Shown: positions 1,987 to 33,084 of the stretch, piece by piece
Position numbering within the stretch: the stretch's first letter is position 1
Layout: the number at the start of each line of letters is the position of its first letter
Source of the DNA: Desulfovibrio sp.
GTDB taxonomy: Bacteria > Desulfobacterota > Desulfovibrionia > Desulfovibrionales > Desulfovibrionaceae
Assembly: GCA_016208105.1 (NCBI GenBank)
Contig: JACQYS010000002.1
Span: 62,001 to 126,000, forward strand
Reading direction: 5' to 3'
DNA: 64,000 nt
Program-made: the position numbers and the translations under genes
The notes under the pieces: generated by a model
The model's input: only the letters and a program-made list of their open reading frames with translations
What the model was told of the DNA's origin: nothing
Databases searched by the model: none

Positions 1987-4900
1987 TTAAGCAGATTTTG
2001 GACGTGATTGCAGGTTTGGAACAGCCATTTGCAAAACAACTGCCCTCGGCTCCCACTCACTCACATAGCCCGGCTCGTCCTGCATACGCTTCAGTTCACG
2101 CATGACAGCACTGTGATTTTCACGCACCAGGGCCAGTTCATCCTGTTGCGGGAACTCCTGCCCCAGAGCGGCCTTAACCGTTGCCAGTTCCGCCATTTCC
2201 TGACGCACATTGCCCTGATAGGTCTGGAAGGATTGATCAAGCCCTTTTTCCAGAAAATTGTCCAGACGCTGAAACATGCCGGACAGACTGAACTTTTCGT
2301 CAAAGCCGTAGACCAAGTTCTCCGGCTGAAATTCCTGTTCGCCCATGCCCTTGAGAGCAAGGCGGAAGCCGTCACCGCCAGCCCCAAGTGATGAACGCAG
2401 CATGGCCACTTCAAAGCCCCGGTACTTGCCCAAGATGGGCTTTGCCCGTGCTTCCCGTGTAATGTCCTTCACTCCGTCTCGCAGAATGTTTTGGATCTGC
2501 TCACTATTTTTTTCAGTCAGCAGCTTGCCGTCCTTCAGCCACTCCAGTCGGATGCGCTCCTTGCCCTTTTCGGTGAACACGCGGGTGTTACCGTCACGCA
2601 GGCCGCAGTTGGCCGCATAGTCCGCTTGCGCCTTGGCAAGGCGACCTTCGGCAGCTCCAAGCCACTTCAGTCGATCCCGCAGGCGGTGTTGCGACCGTTG
2701 ATGCTGTGAATACAGGGCTTCCAGTTTGCGTAGGTCACTGGCCAGCTTCACCTGCATAAGTATGAGCGGGTTGCCAGAGGCCGCAGCCTTCATATCCGCC
2801 GCGTTAGCAGCTTCGGACTGCACATCGTCAATATTGCGCTGGAGCAAGTCCCCCTTGCGGAATTGTTCAATGGCAGCGGCTTTTTGCTCTATTACTTGCC
2901 ACATTCGGCTGTCGTATGTTTGCTTTGTAGCATAATAATAGATGCCTACGGAAAATTTGTCAGGGTCGCGCTCATACAGGCTATTGCCTTGGCGAATGAT
3001 GCGCCCGTTGCGCTGCTCCAGGTCGCTGGGCCTCCAGGGCGCGTCCAGGTGATGCGCGGCCACAAGGCGTTTCTGCACATTCATGCCTGCGCCCATTTTG
3101 GCCGTGGAACCCAGCAGAACCCGCACCCGTCCAGCCTGCATGTCGGAAAAGAGCTTGCCCTTGCGCATGTCGGTATTGGCATCGTGGATGAAGGCAATCT
3201 CATCAGCGGGAATACCACGCTCTATGAGTTTGCGCCGCATGTCGTCGTAGACAGAGAAGCGAGAGCCAGCGGCAACGCAAGCGTCCATGTCTGCGGCCAC
3301 GGATGTGTCTTCACCGGTATCCACTAACGTGGATTCGCCGTCATCGTCGCCAGAGTCCAGCGGGTCTTCGCCAGGTTCTGCATTTGCCGGGTCATCCTCC
3401 GTGGCTGACTCCGTGCCAAAGTCCACACTGGACTCCGTGCCTGACTCCGTATCAACCTGCGCGGCAAAGTCTTCTTCCACAAATTCCAACTTTTGAGTGT
3501 GTGAAGTCGCAGGGGCAGGTGCTGCCGAGCCTCCCTTGGGTGTAGACAAATCGCAGAACACGAGCTGCGTACCCTTGTCCGCCGCCGTGTCTTGCCAAAT
3601 CTGATAGATGCGATCCACGGCGGCATTGGCCTTGGAACCGTCATAGTCCCCAGCCTCCGGGTCAATGAGGCGATAATCCAGCCCAGCCTTTCGGGCGTCA
3701 TTGGTGATTTTCAGGGGATTGTCGATGCGCGGGTCTTTGGGCAGGTGCTCCATGCGGTCGATGATTTCCGTCATATAGCTGGCCTGCACCTCTGAACGCT
3801 CCACCACATGATTGAAAGGCTTGCCATCAGTTAAAGGGGGCGTCAAAGGCCGCAGCCCAGCCTGTTTTGCCTGCTCGTCCAAATCGCCTTTCGTCACCAC
3901 GTCCGCAAAGGTGCGGTACATTGAAAGTAATTCCGGCACGTTCTGGAAGCTGGAAAAACGCGATTTAAGCCTATAATTCACGCCGGTGGCGTCCAATTCC
4001 CAGCCATTGGTAATCTGCCCGAAGGTGGAAGCCCATGCGTCAAAATACTCAATGCCCTTGCTTTTCAGCTCATCAGACTGCAAATAGCGTTGCAGGGTGT
4101 AGACCTCGGCAATGGTATTACTGATGGGGGTGCCGGTCATGAAATACACGCCCCGGCCTTCGTGCTTTTTTTGCAGATACCGGCACTTGATGAACATATC
4201 GAGGGCCTTTGCGGAACCCGTGATATTGCCAAGGCCCGACACATTCATGGTTGTGGTATAGCTGAGATTTTTGAACTCGTGGCTCTCGTCCACAAAAAGC
4301 GCGTCCACGCCCAGGTCGCCAAAATCCACTGAACGATCCTTGGCCCCGGTTCCGGCCATGAGCTTTTCATAGCGGGTTTCCATTTTTTCGCGCTGTTTTT
4401 CAAGCTGCTTGACCGTGGCTCGGCTGCCGTTATTTTCTTTGGATTCTGCTATGGCGGCAATGACCGCATCAATCTGTTCTTGCAGAATTTCTTCCTGCAT
4501 GTCGCGGGGTGTCTCAATTTTTTTAAAGCTGGAATGGGCGACCACAACGGCGTCCCAATCGCCAGTGGCCACCCGGCTGAACAGGCGTTCACGATTCTGC
4601 TTGGTAAAATCTGTCTTGTCGGCCACCAGAATATTGGCCCCCGGGTAAAGCCGGTAAAATTCATCGCGCCACTGGTAGAGCAGGTGATTGGGCACTACTA
4701 CCATAGGCTTGCTGGTAAAACCCATGCGCTTGGATTCCATGATGGTGGCGATGCAGGCCATTGTCTTGCCCGCACCCACAACGTGGTCGAAAAGCGCCGT
4801 GCCTTCCTGAATGCCGCGCCAGACCACATCCTTCTGATGCGGCCGCAGCGAAACATCCGAAGACGCACCCACGAGTTGAATGTGCGAGCCGTCATAACGC

Positions 4901-7695
4901 GGCGGCACATGGGTGTTGAACCGCTCATTGTACAAAGTCGTGAGCATGGTACGGCGCTCATCGTCCGTCCACACCCAATCCAAAAACGCCTGCTTCACCT
5001 CGTCGGCCTTCTGCATGGCAGCGGCTGTAAGTTCCTGATCCACCACCATGATGGGACGGTCGTTGTCGTCGTACTGGCCGCTTTCTTTCTCCACCTTGAT
5101 GGGCCGATTGGTGAGCAGGGATTCCAGAATCTTGGAGGCCGGGTATTCGGGAATGCCCCACACTTCCGTATTGGCCGCGTGGTCGTAGATACTGACCTTG
5201 GCTTCCCAACGTCCCAATATGGGCACATAGTTGATAGTTTGGTGGCCACGGCCCCCATGAATGCGCTCTTCGATGAAGTCAGAAAGCACGTTGCCGGGCA
5301 CCCAGGTGGAGCCGAACTTGACGCCGATGTCCACGGCTTCAATGTCGGGAGGAATAGCGGCGGCAAGGGCCTCCACATTGGCGTGGTACTGCGGGTCTTC
5401 CGCTGCCGCTGCCAGGGCAGCCCTGTGCTTTTCGCGCACATTGCCGGTGAGGTATTTGTCGCTGATCTCCCACTCCGCACTGGCCGGATTGCGGAAAATC
5501 AGGCCCTCATCCTGCAATTCCTTCTGAATGGCCTCCGCTGGCCGGTGCAACAACTGGTTCATGCGGGCAAAGTCCACCTTGCCCGATTCTCGCAGGGAGA
5601 TGACCAGGGCGTCCTTGGTGGTTTCGGCCTTTTCCGCAGCCTGTGTGGGCTTGAGCACCCGTTGCCGAAAGATGGCCGCTTTCCGCGCTGACGCTGGCCG
5701 AAATTCCCGGTCTTGACGCTTGGCTAAGTCTTTGGAAAGCCCCTTGTCGTACTCCAGCTCCAGCGATTCCAAAAGCGAATGCTCCGGGTCGTCGCGCATC
5801 AGCCCCCGGTTGGTCTGGGAATTGAGGTGCCCGTGACGGCGCACAAAGGCATCATACTGCACATTGAGCTGTCGCCGGGCACCTTCAATAAACTTTTCCT
5901 CAGCATCGTTCTTTTCCAGATTGAGAAGGTCACGCAGACTGTCCCGAATCTGGATCATGGAGGCCAGCCGCTGCCGCGCCCCGTCATTTTTGACCGGCAG
6001 CTCTTCATAGCTGGCCTCACCAAAGCCTCCGGCCACTTTGAAGACGATTTTGCGGCTCTGCGGTTCAACACAAAACGCGCCCATTTTGAGAGACTGGAAG
6101 TAGTCGGACGCAATGAATCCTTCATTACGCTTTTCGCTGGTTGCTTCCTCCGCGCTTTCCGTGCGGGGCACATATTGCATGGGCGGCAACACTTGCACCC
6201 GCTTGGATATTTCCGCGCCCAGGTCAATATCAGAAGGAGCCACACAGTTGAGCGCGTCCTGAAACATGCCGCCGGAATAGACCATACTGCCGATGATCTG
6301 GCCGGGCAATTCGGCAAAATACTTGTTGATGACCGCAGGCCGGGTGCCGCCTTCCTTTGTATCGAGGGCTTCTATAGTGGCGGTTTGTGTCCAATCGGTA
6401 CTGCGGATACGCGGGCCGTCATGCTTGCGGAAAAAGAGGATGTCCGTGGTGACATCGGTTAGCGCGTTCTGGCGAAAAGCCGTTTCCGGCAGGCGCACAG
6501 CCCCCAGAAGGTCGGCATATTCTGCAATATGCTCACGGGCAGCGGGGTCTGCCGCATCCATGAAAAAGCGGCTGACCACAAAAGCCCCTATGCCGCCAGG
6601 GCGTAGCAGACTCAAGGACTTTGCTAAAAAGTAGTTGTGAATGGAGAAATTGCGCAGTTCTGGAAAGTTGGGATCGTAGAGGGTCTGCTTGCCAAAAGGC
6701 GGGTTGCCGACAACCAGGTCAAACCTTGCCCCTTGAAGTTCTACATTCTGAAAGCCGTTATTGAGGTGACGAGCTTTCGGGTAAAGATACTTGGAAATGG
6801 CCGCTGTGGTCGGGTCAAGCTCTACAGTTAGGAAGTCAGCATCATAGCCTTGTGGCAGCAGGCCCATGAAGTTACCGATGCCAGCCGAAGGCTCCAGCAC
6901 TCGTAGCGGCCCGCTGCCTTGCAGGCCCATGACATTGAGACCCTGATAAATACCCTTGATAACGGTTTCAGAGGTAAAATGCGCGTCCTGGGTGGAGCGC
7001 CTGGCTTTGACGTATTCGTCTGGCGCAAGCAGGCTTTGCAATTCCTGATATTCCGCAGCCCACTTTTCGTTGCGGGCGTCAAAGGCTTGGGGCAGGCCGC
7101 CCCAGCCCACATAGCGCACCAGCACTTTTTTATCGTCCGGCCCGGCTACCTCCACCTTACGTTCCTGCAAATCCTTGAGCAGACGGATGGCGGCGATGTT
7201 GTCGGCAAACTTGGTTTTGGCACCGCCCTGACCGAGCCGGTCGTCCGAACCTATATGGTAATTTTCAGGCTCGTATCTATCCCTGCGTTCTGCAAAATCT
7301 CCCAATCGCTCATCCCCTGGCGACTCGCTTCCCAGGCTGAATCCGAGTTCAGCACGTTCGCTTCCCTCGTGGCCTGCTGATCCAGCGTCACCATGAAAGA
7401 GATTTCCCCCCTCGCTTCCAAACTGCGCAGGTCGTCGGGCTGGTTCAGTGCCCACCTGTCCAAAATCAAATAAGCGGAGTTGGTGAACGCCGCGCTCTGC
7501 ACTTCGCGGATGGTCTGTGGGCGCAGCACTGTGCGGGCGATGTCCAGTGGATTGGTTGGTCTGTCGAGCATGATATTCCTCCTTGGTATCGGCTTGAGCG
7601 TTCTCGCGCCGAAGTTGTTCTATTTGATCTGCTGTTACGTCAAACGTAAAACTCAACTGCCTGGGGTCATACTTCTGTTTGCGTGGCCGTGCCAT
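1987..7695 (-). CDS. Giant N6-adenine methyltransferase / SNF2-type helicase fusion (DarB-like)
   Basis: This 1902-residue protein joins an N6-adenine DNA methyltransferase to a superfamily 2 helicase. The methylase part shows the AdoMet motif VLEPSAGIGNF near residue 268 and the catalytic NPPF near 330. The helicase part shows Walker A (VVGAGKT, near 973), a DESH box (near 1137), TGTPIS (near 1188) and the C-terminal lobe with EQRNGRIIRQGN (near 1560). A strongly acidic, Ser/Thr-rich stretch (about residues 1400-1470) is inserted between the helicase lobes. The layout matches phage P1 DarB and similar ICE/phage proteins, which protect incoming DNA from restriction. It is the last gene of the unit that starts at 16400 and lies 5 bp after the AbrB-like gene. 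The antirestriction role is inferred from the family. Confidence 0.85.
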   Translation of the reverse strand: MARPRKQKYDPRQLSFTFDVTADQIEQLRRENAQADTKEEYHARQTNQSTGHRPHSAAPTDHPRSAERGVHQLRLFDFGQVGTEPARRPAQFGSEGGNLFHGDAGSAGHEGSERAELGFSLGSESPGDERLGDFAERRDRYEPENYHIGSDDRLGQGGAKTKFADNIAAIRLLKDLQERKVEVAGPDDKKVLVRYVGWGGLPQAFDARNEKWAAEYQELQSLLAPDEYVKARRSTQDAHFTSETVIKGIYQGLNVMGLQGSGPLRVLEPSAGIGNFMGLLPQGYDADFLTVELDPTTAAISKYLYPKARHLNNGFQNVELQGARFDLVVGNPPFGKQTLYDPNFPELRNFSIHNYFLAKSLSLLRPGGIGAFVVSRFFMDAADPAAREHIAEYADLLGAVRLPETAFRQNALTDVTTDILFFRKHDGPRIRSTDWTQTATIEALDTKEGGTRPAVINKYFAELPGQIIGSMVYSGGMFQDALNCVAPSDIDLGAEISKRVQVLPPMQYVPRTESAEEATSEKRNEGFIASDYFQSLKMGAFCVEPQSRKIVFKVAGGFGEASYEELPVKNDGARQRLASMIQIRDSLRDLLNLEKNDAEEKFIEGARRQLNVQYDAFVRRHGHLNSQTNRGLMRDDPEHSLLESLELEYDKGLSKDLAKRQDREFRPASARKAAIFRQRVLKPTQAAEKAETTKDALVISLRESGKVDFARMNQLLHRPAEAIQKELQDEGLIFRNPASAEWEISDKYLTGNVREKHRAALAAAAEDPQYHANVEALAAAIPPDIEAVDIGVKFGSTWVPGNVLSDFIEERIHGGRGHQTINYVPILGRWEAKVSIYDHAANTEVWGIPEYPASKILESLLTNRPIKVEKESGQYDDNDRPIMVVDQELTAAAMQKADEVKQAFLDWVWTDDERRTMLTTLYNERFNTHVPPRYDGSHIQLVGASSDVSLRPHQKDVVWRGIQEGTALFDHVVGAGKTMACIATIMESKRMGFTSKPMVVVPNHLLYQWRDEFYRLYPGANILVADKTDFTKQNRERLFSRVATGDWDAVVVAHSSFKKIETPRDMQEEILQEQIDAVIAAIAESKENNGSRATVKQLEKQREKMETRYEKLMAGTGAKDRSVDFGDLGVDALFVDESHEFKNLSYTTTMNVSGLGNITGSAKALDMFIKCRYLQKKHEGRGVYFMTGTPISNTIAEVYTLQRYLQSDELKSKGIEYFDAWASTFGQITNGWELDATGVNYRLKSRFSSFQNVPELLSMYRTFADVVTKGDLDEQAKQAGLRPLTPPLTDGKPFNHVVERSEVQASYMTEIIDRMEHLPKDPRIDNPLKITNDARKAGLDYRLIDPEAGDYDGSKANAAVDRIYQIWQDTAADKGTQLVFCDLSTPKGGSAAPAPATSHTQKLEFVEEDFAAQVDTESGTESSVDFGTESATEDDPANAEPGEDPLDSGDDDGESTLVDTGEDTSVAADMDACVAAGSRFSVYDDMRRKLIERGIPADEIAFIHDANTDMRKGKLFSDMQAGRVRVLLGSTAKMGAGMNVQKRLVAAHHLDAPWRPSDLEQRNGRIIRQGNSLYERDPDKFSVGIYYYATKQTYDSRMWQVIEQKAAAIEQFRKGDLLQRNIDDVQSEAANAADMKAAASGNPLILMQVKLASDLRKLEALYSQHQRSQHRLRDRLKWLGAAEGRLAKAQADYAANCGLRDGNTRVFTEKGKERIRLEWLKDGKLLTEKNSEQIQNILRDGVKDITREARAKPILGKYRGFEVAMLRSSLGAGGDGFRLALKGMGEQEFQPENLVYGFDEKFSLSGMFQRLDNFLEKGLDQSFQTYQGNVRQEMAELATVKAALGQEFPQQDELALVRENHSAVMRELKRMQDEPGYVSEWEPRAVVLQMAVPNLQSRPKSA

Positions 7696-28939: not shown

Positions 28940-30055
28940 TCACCTCGCCTTCACGTTGAGCACAAGAATGCCCACCACCGTACCGCTTTCCAGGTAGACC
29001 GTGGGAGGCCGCTCAAAATTCTTCTCAAAGATTTTCCCGGCCTTTTCTCCCACCTTGCCCGCCGCAATCCAGGCCTGATCCGCAGGGCTATAAGTGTTCC
29101 AGACCATCTGATCCGTGGTTTGGCCGTTCATCCCGCCCCCATAGCTTCCGTAGATGGTGCTCTGTGCGCCGCTGTACTTTTTGGCGTTGGACAGACCTTC
29201 CAGAAAGGCCGTGGCAATAAGCCCTCCCCAGCGGCTGAAGAAATGCGTATCCACCGAAGAGGCCACAGAGGCTTCAGACGTGGCCGGGTCAACCGCATAG
29301 CCCTCAATCTGGGCATCCGAACCATCCGGCAGAATGACTCTGGTGAAGGCGAGTACCAGCCGTTCTTCAAAACGCTGAAACTTGCCAAGGAGACGTGCGT
29401 TTTTGAGCTTGCCCGAAGCCACCGTGGCCATGACGGCAGAAGGAACGTCAGAATTTACGCCAGTGTCGATGACGGCGTAGAGAAGATCGCCAGGCTTCAA
29501 AGTCAGAGTGTTGGATGCCAGTGACTCCCCATCGCTGGACACAAACGCAGGGGCAGGGAGGGGTTTGTCCTTGGAAAAATCATGCACAAAAACGACTTTT
29601 CCCTGTTCCACAGATACCGAGGATAATTTGGCATCCAGAGCCGCTAGGTCTTCCAACATCCTTTTTTGCAGGGTGTTGTCCGTGCGCGGAGCCTGTATAG
29701 GAGCCACACGCGGAGGCGTGACCGGCGGGGGAGGCGGGGGTGTGTCTTGCTTTCGTGTTACTGCCGGGGTTTTGGTGCCCACAGGCGTGGGAATAAAGCT
29801 CTCGCCCGCTGCAAGGGCACTGTTGGCCTTTTGCTGGTCGTGAGCTTCCAGCTTTTTGTTGTACTCTTCCGAGCCTTCACCGCCCGCCTGCCCTTTGACG
29901 GAATCCGTGCGGGCCGAGGCCAGCGTGGCCGAAGCCGAAGGCTTTTTCGGCGCGAACAGCGCCATGTAGCCCACCGCAAGGACAACGGTCACAGCCACTC
30001 CCAAAAGGGCGAACATGACGAAACGGCGTTTCTTTTCCGTGCTGGTGACGCTCAT
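28940..30055 (-). CDS. Type IVB core channel protein, DotG/IcmE/TraO-like (short form)
   Basis: The product has one N-terminal membrane helix (about residues 13-31), a proline-rich linker (PPPPPPVTPPRVAP) and a C-terminal VirB10-like domain ending with ESGTVVGILVLNVKAR. DotG spans the periplasm and links inner and outer rings. At 371 residues it lacks the long repeat region of Legionella DotG (over 1000 residues). The frame is open to 30211, but the ATG at 30055 overlaps the dotH stop (ATGA) and has a GGGAGG site, so I start there. Confidence 0.87.
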   Translation of the reverse strand: MSVTSTEKKRRFVMFALLGVAVTVVLAVGYMALFAPKKPSASATLASARTDSVKGQAGGEGSEEYNKKLEAHDQQKANSALAAGESFIPTPVGTKTPAVTRKQDTPPPPPPVTPPRVAPIQAPRTDNTLQKRMLEDLAALDAKLSSVSVEQGKVVFVHDFSKDKPLPAPAFVSSDGESLASNTLTLKPGDLLYAVIDTGVNSDVPSAVMATVASGKLKNARLLGKFQRFEERLVLAFTRVILPDGSDAQIEGYAVDPATSEASVASSVDTHFFSRWGGLIATAFLEGLSNAKKYSGAQSTIYGSYGGGMNGQTTDQMVWNTYSPADQAWIAAGKVGEKAGKIFEKNFERPPTVYLESGTVVGILVLNVKAR

Positions 30056-31125
30056 GGCTTCACCTCCCCATGCCCCTTGCCGGGTTCCGGGTCTTTCAGC
30101 ACCAGGGTCTGCATTGTGCCGCCCACGGAGAGCATGATCCGTGATGTAACAGGCACCTCGTAGCACTTCATGTTGCCCGCGCCGTTGACCACCGCCGTCC
30201 AAGCAGGCCACATCATGCTGTGACTGGTGCGGACGTAGTGATTTGCGCCGAGCTTCCAGACCTGCACCTTGTCCGGCGTGGGTTCCATGCGCACGCGAAC
30301 GGCCCCTGCTGGCGGCACATGATCCAGAAAGGCTAACATGGAGGAGTTCACGGTTTCCTTGATGTCCTCAATGACCGGCACTTTGGCGCGTGGGCCATGC
30401 TGGGAAATCTGAAAGAGCACCAGGGCGTCCGCCTTGCGCTCCGGCCCGCGCACAGAATCCGATTCCAGCCGGATGACCAGCGGAATGTCCTGTTTCTCCA
30501 GCGTCACGACCAGGGTTGTGGTGCCGTAGGCCTGTATGGGCGTGATGTTCAACAGATTGCCGTCCGGCAGTTCAGGGCGCAGAACTTGGAAAAACGAAGG
30601 CCCACCGTTGGTGACGGAAGTGATGGGCCAGGGCTGCCCCGTGGAATCGTGGATGAGCAGCGAGGTGGCAATATTGGCCGTGGTGAACACCCGCACCGGC
30701 GCACTGCCAGGTTCCAGCGACACCCGCGCTGTACGCGAGGCCAGTGAAGGCGACACCGGCAGCAAAGCCCGCTCGCGCTGATCCGACCGCTCCCGGTACT
30801 CCTGAATCTGACTGTCATCCAGCGGCATCATCTGACGCAGGCTTTCTTGAAACAGTGTTTGGGCATCGGGCTTTTTGCCTTCCTGGGGCAAAGCAGCCGT
30901 AACGGCAGGCGCAGCTGGAGTTGGAGGCACAGCCGGGGTAGCCGTGACAGGATCTGCCGTTGTAGGTCTTTGAGCGTCCGTTTGACCTAGGACAATGCCC
31001 TGCTGCCCGATGACGGGGGCAGGTGGTGCCACAGGCACAGGCGGCTGTTCCGCCGCCCAGGCCATGCTTCCCCAGAGCAGCACAAGTAGTGCCGGGAGCA
31101 GACGAAAAATGTGTTGTCGTTTCAC
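30052..31125 (-). CDS. Outer-membrane core protein, DotH/IcmK/TraN-like
   Basis: A signal peptide (LLPALLVLLWGSMAWA) and a Pro/Ala/Thr-rich linker precede a C-terminal domain with ANIATSLLIHDSTGQPWPIT, NLLNITPIQAYGTTTLVVTL and VWKLGANHYVRTSH, typical of DotH. It forms the outer-membrane ring with DotC and DotD. The GTG at 31125 lies six bases after AAGGAG; the TTG at 31146 is in frame but lacks a ribosome site. It starts 24 bp after the HTH protein gene. Confidence 0.87.
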   Translation of the reverse strand: MKRQHIFRLLPALLVLLWGSMAWAAEQPPVPVAPPAPVIGQQGIVLGQTDAQRPTTADPVTATPAVPPTPAAPAVTAALPQEGKKPDAQTLFQESLRQMMPLDDSQIQEYRERSDQRERALLPVSPSLASRTARVSLEPGSAPVRVFTTANIATSLLIHDSTGQPWPITSVTNGGPSFFQVLRPELPDGNLLNITPIQAYGTTTLVVTLEKQDIPLVIRLESDSVRGPERKADALVLFQISQHGPRAKVPVIEDIKETVNSSMLAFLDHVPPAGAVRVRMEPTPDKVQVWKLGANHYVRTSHSMMWPAWTAVVNGAGNMKCYEVPVTSRIMLSVGGTMQTLVLKDPEPGKGHGEVKP

Positions 31126-31149
31126 TGAAATCTCCTTGGTTTGCAATCG

Positions 31150-32331
31150 TCACATGGCTCTGGCCAGGGCCGGAGACACAGGCTGTCGTGAAAACATTGG
31201 GTGATGCGGCAAGAGAGCACCGAAGGCGGTGAGCTTGTTGCCTCGTGGCTCAGTGAACGCCCCAAACGCGGTCTGTGCCGTGCGTTCCGGCACGACAGGT
31301 TTCCGCCATGCCGCTTCTTCGCAACGCCGCTTGAAGGCTTGCAGAAATTCGCCAATACCAAGCTGATTGTCGGCAGGCACGTCAGAAGGCGTGGGCGCAC
31401 GATGTGTGTTGTGCAGGTGCATCCACAGACCAAAGGCCATTGGCCTGATCCAGGGCTTGTCGTGAATTTGAAAGCTCTTGGCAAAGGCATCAAAGCGGGG
31501 TCTGAGAGCTTCGCGCTCTCTGGCTCGTGCAGCATTGTTGGCTTCCTCTTTTTGCTGCATAGCCTGAAGGGCAGCGACAGATCGCTGTCTGGCTTCTGCC
31601 TCATTGGCGGCTGCCATCACGTCATCATCCAGCCAACGCTGACCTTTTAGCCAGTTGCTCATCTGCGGCACAAAGCGGCCTTGTTCACGCTGCCAGGTCT
31701 CCGAGGTCATGAAATGCCTGATGCTGGATTCAATTCGAGACAAAGGCGGCAACAAGCCCTCTCGCTGGAGACGTAGCCAGGCAGAACGGGCAAGGCCCTT
31801 GGCCTCTTTTTTGGGGTAGAGTTCCCATACTTTTTCAAAATTAGAGACAGACACACCCCCTCCCCCTGACACGGAAGGTAGAGGCGAGGCCGCAAAATCT
31901 GGCAACGCAGAACGCACGGGGGGTAAGGGGGGATTTTGTATTTCTCTTTGCTTGTTAAGAGTATTTATGTAGCCAACTTTTGGCTGTGGGCAGGCAGAGT
32001 CTGCCTGACGGCAGGCAGGATTTGCCTCTTGGCTTACCGACTTCAACGCAGCCGGTTCCAACATATAATAAACGGATGAGCGGTATTGCTCACGCCGAAC
32101 ATGCACGAGCTTGATTCCTACCAGCTCGGCCAGGTACTTCTTAACGCTGCTCACACTGCACGAAAGCCGAGCGGCCAGCTTGGCCTGGGAGGGCCAGCAG
32201 CGGTCGTTGTCCGAAGCGTAATTGCACAGCAGGGCATACATAATTTTGGCTCCAAAACTGATTGAGGTTTCCAACACAAATTGCGGTAAAATCGGCCCGT
32301 GAATCCGTCCTCTTGGTGCAAATGTCTGCAT
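31150..32331 (-). CDS. Replication-type helix-turn-helix protein
   Basis: Near the N-terminus is a winged-helix domain (SFGAKIMYALLCNYASDN; CWPSQAKLAARLSCSVSSVKKYLAEL) like those of plasmid RepA/RepO-type initiators and HTH_36 proteins. A low-complexity linker and a second region (VWELYPKKEAKGLARSAW.RL; WLKGQRW) like phage replisome organizers follow. I use the ATG at 32331, after GAAGAGAG; the frame is open to 32430. It is the first gene of the minus-strand transfer operon and lies beside a hairpin-rich non-coding region that could hold its binding sites. A role in starting replication is inferred. Confidence 0.72.
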   Translation of the reverse strand: MQTFAPRGRIHGPILPQFVLETSISFGAKIMYALLCNYASDNDRCWPSQAKLAARLSCSVSSVKKYLAELVGIKLVHVRREQYRSSVYYMLEPAALKSVSQEANPACRQADSACPQPKVGYINTLNKQREIQNPPLPPVRSALPDFAASPLPSVSGGGGVSVSNFEKVWELYPKKEAKGLARSAWLRLQREGLLPPLSRIESSIRHFMTSETWQREQGRFVPQMSNWLKGQRWLDDDVMAAANEAEARQRSVAALQAMQQKEEANNAARAREREALRPRFDAFAKSFQIHDKPWIRPMAFGLWMHLHNTHRAPTPSDVPADNQLGIGEFLQAFKRRCEEAAWRKPVVPERTAQTAFGAFTEPRGNKLTAFGALLPHHPMFSRQPVSPALARAM

Positions 32332-32997
32332 GGTTCGCGCTCTCTTCCCCAAGCGGGGTAGGCCGAAAAAAAGCAAAAACAAGCAGACTCGATGCACTTG
32401 ACAAAGAGGAACCTTGCGGTTTAGTGTCATCTCACTGCAAAGAGAGATTTCACTCTGCTGATAAGCCGATACGCGCCAACGTATTGGCTTTTCGCCTTTC
32501 TAGGCCTTGGTTTTCCTCAACGTGTTTCCTTTGCTTGAGGTGATTGTCTGAGCGGCTGGCTCGTCAGGCCGTGGGCACCACCCACGACGCCCCCGCACCT
32601 GCATGACGCAAGTTCCCCTGCTGCTGTGGCGTAGAGCCACAAGCACAAGAGCGCGAGGTTTCGCCCTTCTTCCGTGAACACGGGAGGGGGGCGAATTTTT
32701 TGTGAGGGAGCGTGTACCGTGAAAGGAGACTGGGACTGAGAAAACAAAAAAGCCCCCCTTGGGCATTCGAGACGAATGACCAAGAAGAGCTTTGACAAGG
32801 TGAGCTTTGTAAGGGAAGGACGCGCCGCAAGCGCAGAGAGTCTCCCCCACGAAAGGTGGGGGCAGCGACAAGTGGGTACCCCAAGAAATTTTAGCAAATT
32901 TCCAGGGGTGGGGGCATAGTGGGGGAGAATTGCTGTGGGGGAAAAAGAAAAGCGGGCTAAAAGAAAGACTTTTTCTTCTAACCCGTTGATTTTCTTA
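32332..32997. other. Non-coding, hairpin-rich region between rep-type gene and tRNA-Leu (candidate oriT/oriV/att)
   Basis: No convincing gene is present. Perfect short hairpins occur at 32570-32586 (CGGTGGG-like stem CGTGGG/CCCACG), 32625-32641 (TGTGGC/GCCACA), 32672-32683 (CCGTG/CACGG), 32764-32778 (CATTCG/CGAATG) and 32844-32862 (CCCCCAC/GTGGGGG). An inverted repeat GAAATTT-TAGC-AAATTTC is at 32885-32902. GTGGGGG occurs four times at 32856, 32908, 32919 and 32935. Density of hairpins and repeats suggests a transfer or replication origin or an integrase arm region; which one is not shown by sequence alone. Confidence 0.55.
32941..32985 (-). terminator. Rho-independent terminator of tRNA-Leu
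   Basis: Reading the minus strand, the CGGGTTAGAAG arm pairs with CTTTTAGCCCG (two mismatches) and is followed by CTTTTCTTTTTC. It begins 12 bp past the CCA end of the tRNA. Confidence 0.7.
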
Positions 32998-33084
32998 TGG
33001 TGCCGAAGGGGAGACTCGAACTCCCATGCCCTTGCGAGCACTAGACCCTGAACCTAGCGTGTCTACCAATTCCACCACTTCGGC
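32998..33084 (-). tRNA. tRNA-Leu (anticodon CAG)
   Basis: The minus strand folds into a class II cloverleaf: acceptor GCCGAAG/CTTCGGC, D-loop with TGGTAGAC, anticodon stem CTAGG/TCTAG with loop TTCAGGG (anticodon CAG), a long variable arm, GTTCGAGTC T-loop, and an encoded CCA at the 3' end (32998-33000). tRNA-Leu genes are frequent integration sites; the mobile element lies on the 3' side, as expected for such an insertion, but no repeat of the 3' end of the tRNA was found at the other side within the window. Confidence 0.97.

Follow-up and report, generated by a model that had tools for sequence, protein, structure and literature searches.

The locus considered here raises the question of what a dense cluster of hairpins does between a replication-initiator-like gene and a tRNA gene: whether it acts as DNA, in the form of a transfer origin, a single-strand initiation site or a replication origin, as a preliminary description had proposed, or whether it acts as RNA. 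The cluster occupies positions 32332-32997 of the window, which is the whole 64,000-nucleotide stretch of Desulfovibrio sp. DNA that was analysed (G000:C2:62001-126000) and to which positions refer below unless a contig or locus is named. In our reading, which we put at roughly three chances in four, this region unites the attachment-site end of a ~67-kb conjugative element with an RNA control leader of the element's replication-initiator-like (rep) and type IV secretion system (T4SS) genes. The earlier reading as DNA notwithstanding, comparison among related loci points to the hairpins being mostly parts of RNAs.

All five hairpins listed in that description can be read. Four of them (32570-32586, 32625-32641, 32764-32778 and 32844-32862) have perfect arms of 6-7 bp, whereas the arms of the fifth, at 32672-32683, reach only 5 bp, and this hairpin caps a longer, imperfect stem at 32660-32695. 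Their density, which had been judged high for non-coding DNA, is indeed above chance: 32332-32997 holds six perfect stems of 6 bp or longer, where dinucleotide shuffling leaves 1.23 on average; none of 200 shuffles reaches six, and among 666-bp windows tiled with half overlap across the 64 kb none exceeds five. The excess is weaker when the minimum arm length is set at 5 bp (8 observed, 4.41 expected; 8/200 shuffles reach 8) or at 7 bp (2 observed, 0.32 expected; 5/200 shuffles reach 2). Folded as RNA, 32431-32997 has a z-score of -5.2 for the plus strand and of -6.2 for the minus strand.

The rep gene and the attachment-site end of the element

The adjoining gene (31150-32331, minus strand) encodes an HTH_36 protein that matches PHROG 270, replication initiation, at E = 4.3e-32, so that its earlier description as replication-type holds. 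Its conserved start is M34 (codon 34) of a longer open reading frame, at position 32331, where the homologs also start; upstream of this true start the DNA is conserved and the protein is not. By sequence the protein is related to known initiators (PHROG 270, 9474 and 9327), and tblastn gave weak matches to phage O/RepA-like proteins. The predicted structure (pLDDT 70, pTM 0.32) consists of a winged helix and further helices; a Foldseek search with this pLDDT-70 model returned nothing at E <= 0.001, initiator chains being found among weak matches to many winged-helix proteins, and a search of solved structures by sequence returned nothing at E <= 1. Plasmid searches gave no match at E <= 1e-5 with the longer rep frame or at E <= 0.01 with the DNA, and weak matches to 57 records when relaxed to E <= 1. 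Of 288 genomes in the bacterial family, 62 have a rep homolog (E <= 1e-10), and a class-wide search of 348 genomes, mostly of the same family, found a match in 71, three of them outside the family. From the matches in family genomes, 70 rep loci were taken for comparison, 30 in a first set and 40 later, the matches outside these 70 being mostly fragments or second copies. Near-duplicates (e.g., L043 and L044) and many closely related loci occur among them, and the counts given below are therefore not independent.

Rep heads a row of Dot-like T4SS genes on the minus strand, which comprises DotH, a TrbI-like gene, DotI, DotD, TraI, an ATPase, DotM and a coupling protein; a topoisomerase and ArdC are also found among the minus-strand genes to the left of the tRNA. 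The dotH-like frame (30052-31146, minus strand, putative start; PF12293, 8e-43) begins 3 bp past the rep stop codon. Among loci L019-L048, 30 in all and some of them truncated by contig ends, a dotH gene lies downstream of rep in 20 and was not found in the other ten, so coupling to transfer is not general. Close to the T4SS genes, positions 1987-7695 encode a protein of 1902 aa in which an N6-methylase domain is joined to an SNF2-type helicase domain, a combination typical of large conjugative elements.

On its other side the region adjoins, as had been noted, a tRNA-Leu(CAG) gene (32998-33084, minus strand). A repeat of the 3' part of this gene stands next to a tyrosine integrase gene 67 kb further left, and the 14-nt att core CACTAGACCCTGAA, which lies in the anticodon region at 33039-33052, recurs there at L003:1542-1555. 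From this comparison of att sites we infer an integrative conjugative element at C2:~27,890-95,050, inserted in the anticodon loop, from which the tRNA would take its 3' part and its terminator (window 32998-33084; L003:1501-1558), so that the present tRNA gene would be a chimera of a host 5' part and an element-borne 3' part. The tRNA-Leu terminator stands at the element end, at 32943-32985 on the minus strand (32953-32985 in the terminator scan). Att repeats, a tyrosine integrase, a relaxase, a coupling protein and a T4SS were all found. On sequence grounds, then, a ~67-kb integrative conjugative element occupies tRNA-Leu, and the hairpin region forms one of its two ends. The gene that flanks tRNA-Leu on the left was not found in 15 loci of relatives, which consequently show no empty site; ribF was found in five of these 15.

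Within the region, GTGGGGG direct repeats (32855-32945) are candidate integrase arm sites of attP. A pair of them, contained in the 18-nt GTGGGGGCATAGTGGGGG at 32908-32925, is common to the integrase end, where the same sequence stands at L003:1652-1669 (E 1.6e-6), and the hairpin at 32844-32862 includes one repeat of this type. Short direct repeats could also belong to a replication origin (oriV), or to a primase-dependent single-strand initiation site, overlapping the leader and the arm repeats, and such an origin would suit both the adjacent initiator-like gene and the RepB-type primase domain carried by the relaxase of the element. The occurrence of GTGGGGG at the integrase end argues instead for arm sites, no iteron array longer than three families of two copies was found, and RNA explains most of the conserved features of the region; we therefore regard an origin here as unlikely, although it is a serious competitor.

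Hammerhead ribozymes and terminators upstream of rep

Reading the region as an element end with an RNA leader accounts for two of the hairpins as pieces of a degenerate type II hammerhead ribozyme (32550-32666, minus strand): the hairpin at 32570-32586 is its stem I, and that at 32625-32641 lies inside a 55-nt insertion which enlarges stem III. The match to RF02276 scores 23.5 bits against a cut-off of 37 and was seen in a permissive scan only; at the gathering score, Rfam finds only the tRNA in the window. GAAA and CUGACGA are kept and U16.1 is replaced (aligned to G), whereas L025, L036 and L046 have the whole conserved core of GAAA, CUGANGA and NUH at the cleavage site. The relatives share the fold, core and stem order of the type II hammerhead. 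Since the window copy falls below the Rfam cut-off and lacks U16.1, it is probably inactive, the decayed remains of a self-cleaving ribozyme.

Among 69 rep loci, RF02276 matched at 40 (7/16, 16/20, 9/20 and 8/13 by set), 35 of them at or above the gathering score, in a sample whose later 40 loci were chosen once the locations of hammerheads in the family had already been seen. The best of these scores 74.3 bits, and the scan left 29 of the 69 loci without a hammerhead. All 40 share the strand of rep; 34 of them stop 187-258 nt short of rep, the remaining six lying 497-1961 nt from it. Type II hammerheads above the cut-off occur in at least 99 of the 288 family genomes, at a frequency which by our own arithmetic amounts to roughly one in every several megabases; well below one would then be expected by chance within 1 kb of 69 rep loci. 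The association is not exclusive, as a rep-like gene was found in only one (L077) of the best 30 family hammerhead loci (L061-L090) when the longest downstream frame was inspected by eye. Several of these 30 adjoin Mu-like gp16 genes, an identity which we presume for the genes beside the strongest family hammerheads, and one genome (G084) carries at least ten hammerhead matches at E <= 1.

Loss or replacement of the hammerhead can be followed in several relatives. In a sister element (G031, L038) the CUGA core is seemingly lost and there is no hammerhead match. The RF02276 scan found none in the group L030, L031, L032, L034 and L092, whose upstream DNA is nearly identical and hence uninformative. 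Loci L023, L024, L026-L029 and L091 also have no hammerhead and carry another conserved block in the corresponding position, between a minus-strand terminator and the leader; another ribozyme in its place was considered and rejected, as there was no Rfam match and no clear structure.

Bacteria commonly carry type II hammerheads, and bacterial hammerheads often lie near integrases or prophages, their precise functions being described as unclear (Perreault et al. 2011, PMC3088659). The contexts of RF02276 given in the parts of that survey used here are those of prophages and integrases, whereas the matches reported here stand at a fixed distance before the rep gene of a conjugative element. Oleidesulfovibrio alaskensis has one type II hammerhead, whose role is given as unknown in the part of the source cited (PMC11124144). 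The haloviruses HF1 and HF2 offer a parallel: 13 nt ahead of a DNA helicase gene, in the leader of a presumed replication gene, they have a hammerhead variant, and a transcript 5' end is mapped near the cleavage site; they differ in being archaeal viruses with another gene, and the passages on them in PMC3088659 that we draw on describe no antisense RNA.

Further hairpins of the region resemble terminators. One, followed by T6, lies on the plus strand at 32660-32702; another, on the minus strand at 32741-32793 (stem 32749-32793, then a U-run), was recognised by eye and is absent from the terminator scan. In 23 of 70 loci, the strand of rep also carries a tRNA gene 439-1322 nt upstream, and the leader is therefore often exposed to transcription coming in from a host tRNA gene. 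Rep, like the T4SS genes that follow it, is read leftwards, in the same direction as host tRNA-Leu, and the terminators, together with the hammerhead where it is intact, may insulate this row of genes from tRNA-side transcripts. In Tn916, a terminator (T1) at one end of the element likewise acts as an insulator, shielding replication and transfer genes from host transcription, and the portion of the source consulted describes no comparable ribozyme or antisense RNA (PMC11658703). With this precedent and the same-strand tRNA genes, the terminators and the hammerhead could be thought to do nothing other than block read-through from tRNA-Leu, with no control of copy number. We find insulation as the sole function distinctly improbable, because it leaves unexplained the antisense promoter and the covarying leader described below, both of which occur also in loci with no tRNA in the stretch compared.

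A predicted antisense RNA opposite the rep leader

The control leader in our reading is the part of the region next to rep, where features are found on both strands. On the plus strand, a candidate promoter (32398-32427) is composed of TTGACA at 32398-32403, an 18-nt spacer and TAGTGT at 32422-32427; it would drive a ~59-nt RNA with a putative start at 32434, ending at 32492 in the intrinsic terminator SL-C (32463-32492), whose stem covaries. A strict promoter scan of the window region found no promoter because TAGTGT is a poor -10 box. The argument for this promoter comes from its relatives. The motif TTGAC[AG]-N16-18-TAnnnT, which was derived from an alignment of the first 18 loci and later widened to TTGAC[AG], stands opposite rep, 30-110 nt from it, in 50 of 68 loci (two of the 70 being too short); L021, whose -10 box lies outside the pattern, was added by hand at a later stage. 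Its start positions are 33-100 nt before rep, mostly 46-68. The sense-strand control found it in 0/68, and single-letter shuffles lead to an expectation of 0.085; it is absent at 18 of the 68 loci. In a position-free scan with the textbook consensus, the highest-scoring antisense promoter falls between -110 and -30 in 57/68 (mean score 6.56), against 21/68 (mean score 5.62) for the sense strand, and a search for a conserved sense promoter of rep found none.

A hairpin and a T-run follow the motif in the 50 loci, so that the predicted RNAs measure 57-93 nt (mean 65.6) and have terminators of -18.4 kcal/mol on average. The terminator stems vary between lineages yet remain paired; in antisense-controlled replicons, terminator stems diversify between lineages. 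The conserved sigma70-type promoter motif, the hairpin and the T-run together predict a short RNA complementary to the leader of the rep mRNA; this RNA, transcribed counter to rep, would repress rep as well as any T4SS genes co-transcribed with it.

The leader itself, on the minus strand, can be folded into SL-D (32429-32459), a two-part covarying hairpin with the segment J1 (32454-32458) at its 5' side; SL-E (32410-32421), a small hairpin with a GNRA-type tetraloop, here GCAA; and a segment J2 (32383-32387) that can pair with J1 and is followed by U-runs before rep (32366-32387). Covariation was assessed on a sequence-only alignment of 16 leaders (A3), in which the more divergent groups of a 27-row alignment (A2) are left out. 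With SL-C, SL-D, SL-E and J1-J2 taken together, 84.8% of cells are paired against 77.0 in shuffles, and double-change cells number 39 against 13.0, with 0/500 shuffles reaching either figure. Slid structures are paired in 26-44% of cells, a control that favours the structure because it was chosen after folding these same sequences. Further pair types on A3 are not significant (29/500 shuffles), and the outer stem of SL-D is paired in 61% of cells only. The J1-J2 helix is 93.5% paired on A3, with two pairs changed on both sides. The wobbles of SL-D are those of the minus strand, and the U-G wobbles of SL-C those of the plus strand.

J2 is also linked to the predicted antisense RNA, as it pairs with the target of this RNA more than shuffled J2 does in 43 of 50 loci, the window's own J1-J2 pairing being no stronger than that of shuffled J2 (4.9 vs 4.7). 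When the target is masked in folding, local pairing of J2 rises from 5.5 to 9.8 nt. In these models, the local pairing and the U-run after J2 are consistent with attenuation: the small plus-strand RNA would cover J1, J2, no longer engaged by J1, would fold into a local hairpin ahead of the U-run, and transcription of rep would stop. Alternatively, translation would be blocked.

The covariation of SL-E and J1-J2, the U-run after J2 and the minus-strand wobbles of SL-D would also be expected of a cis-acting, riboswitch-like leader on the rep mRNA, with the opposite promoter as an incidental feature. To this view we give little credence: the TTGAC-TAnnnT motif outlasts the loss of SL-E pairing in the L030 group and is found in 50/68 loci, the wobbles of SL-C favour the plus strand, and the terminator stems differ by lineage yet are paired, as in antisense-controlled replicons.

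A counter-transcribed repressor would resemble the RNAs that control plasmid rep genes, such as those of ColIb-P9/IncB, pT181 and pIP501. In these, likewise, a short RNA with its own promoter and terminator stands opposite a structured rep leader, and the stems are diversified. Unlike the plasmid systems, the locus described here belongs to an integrative conjugative element, has a T4SS directly behind rep and a hammerhead upstream, and its repression is putative. The family ctRNA_pGA1 (RF00236), an antisense RNA of plasmid replication, gave only a sub-threshold match (L035:3724-3802, 34.4 bits, cut-off 45), which lies away from the rep leader. Comparison with related elements, named in the preliminary description as a check on its proposals, thus finds part of the region conserved, namely the antisense promoter and terminator, the covarying leader and the hammerhead.

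A possible two-part RNA device and the site of transfer

A wider proposal can be made, which we consider possible rather than probable. The element family may share a two-part RNA device for replication and, through the shared operon, for conjugation, in which a type II hammerhead would cut host-side transcripts and define a rep mRNA with a 5'-OH end, while a diversifying antisense RNA would set rep expression by attenuation and create incompatibility groups. Literature searches that combined hammerhead or other self-cleaving ribozymes with either conjugative elements or replication initiators, and antisense RNA with the replication of integrative conjugative elements, brought up no such module among the papers listed, as judged from titles and the beginnings of abstracts. 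The fixed distance before one gene family would give bacterial hammerheads a concrete, testable job. If the proposal is true, copy control by an antisense RNA would, on such an integrative conjugative element, tie copy number to incompatibility and, through the T4SS behind rep, to conjugation, with a reach over a bacterial family in which the rep family is present in 62 of 288 genomes.

The transfer origin is to be sought elsewhere in the element. A TraI/MobP-like relaxase, which scores 240 bits against an NCBI cut-off of 250, is encoded with a NikA-like gene at C2:~51.4-54.0 kb, ~43 kb from the hairpin region. In 12 of 17 relaxase loci (17 of 20 were examined), an inverted repeat followed by YATCCTGCC, which we take to be the nick consensus, precedes the NikA-like and relaxase genes; what is conserved in the hairpin region agrees with RNA parts rather than with a nick site. 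Dense hairpins in the non-coding DNA of a conjugative element may call to mind a transfer origin (oriT) with hairpins flanking a nick site, but this claim of the preliminary description is scarcely tenable, given the recurrent site beside the distant relaxase, stems that covary as RNA rather than preserve a fixed site, and a degenerate hammerhead that explains two of the five hairpins.

The relaxase is itself a relaxase-primase fusion (G000:C2:51765-54029; L050:9765-12029), preceded by the NikA-like gene and the conserved oriT-like inverted repeat. RSF1010 MobA-RepB is a relaxase-primase, and the protein found here is like it in the fusion of a relaxase to a RepB-type primase; the setting differs, in that the element is large, its T4SS is Dot-like and its relaxase is of the TraI/MobP type. 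In another family genome (G147:C1:2317841-2321359), two rep genes lie on the same strand 2.4 kb apart, which suggests elements in tandem.
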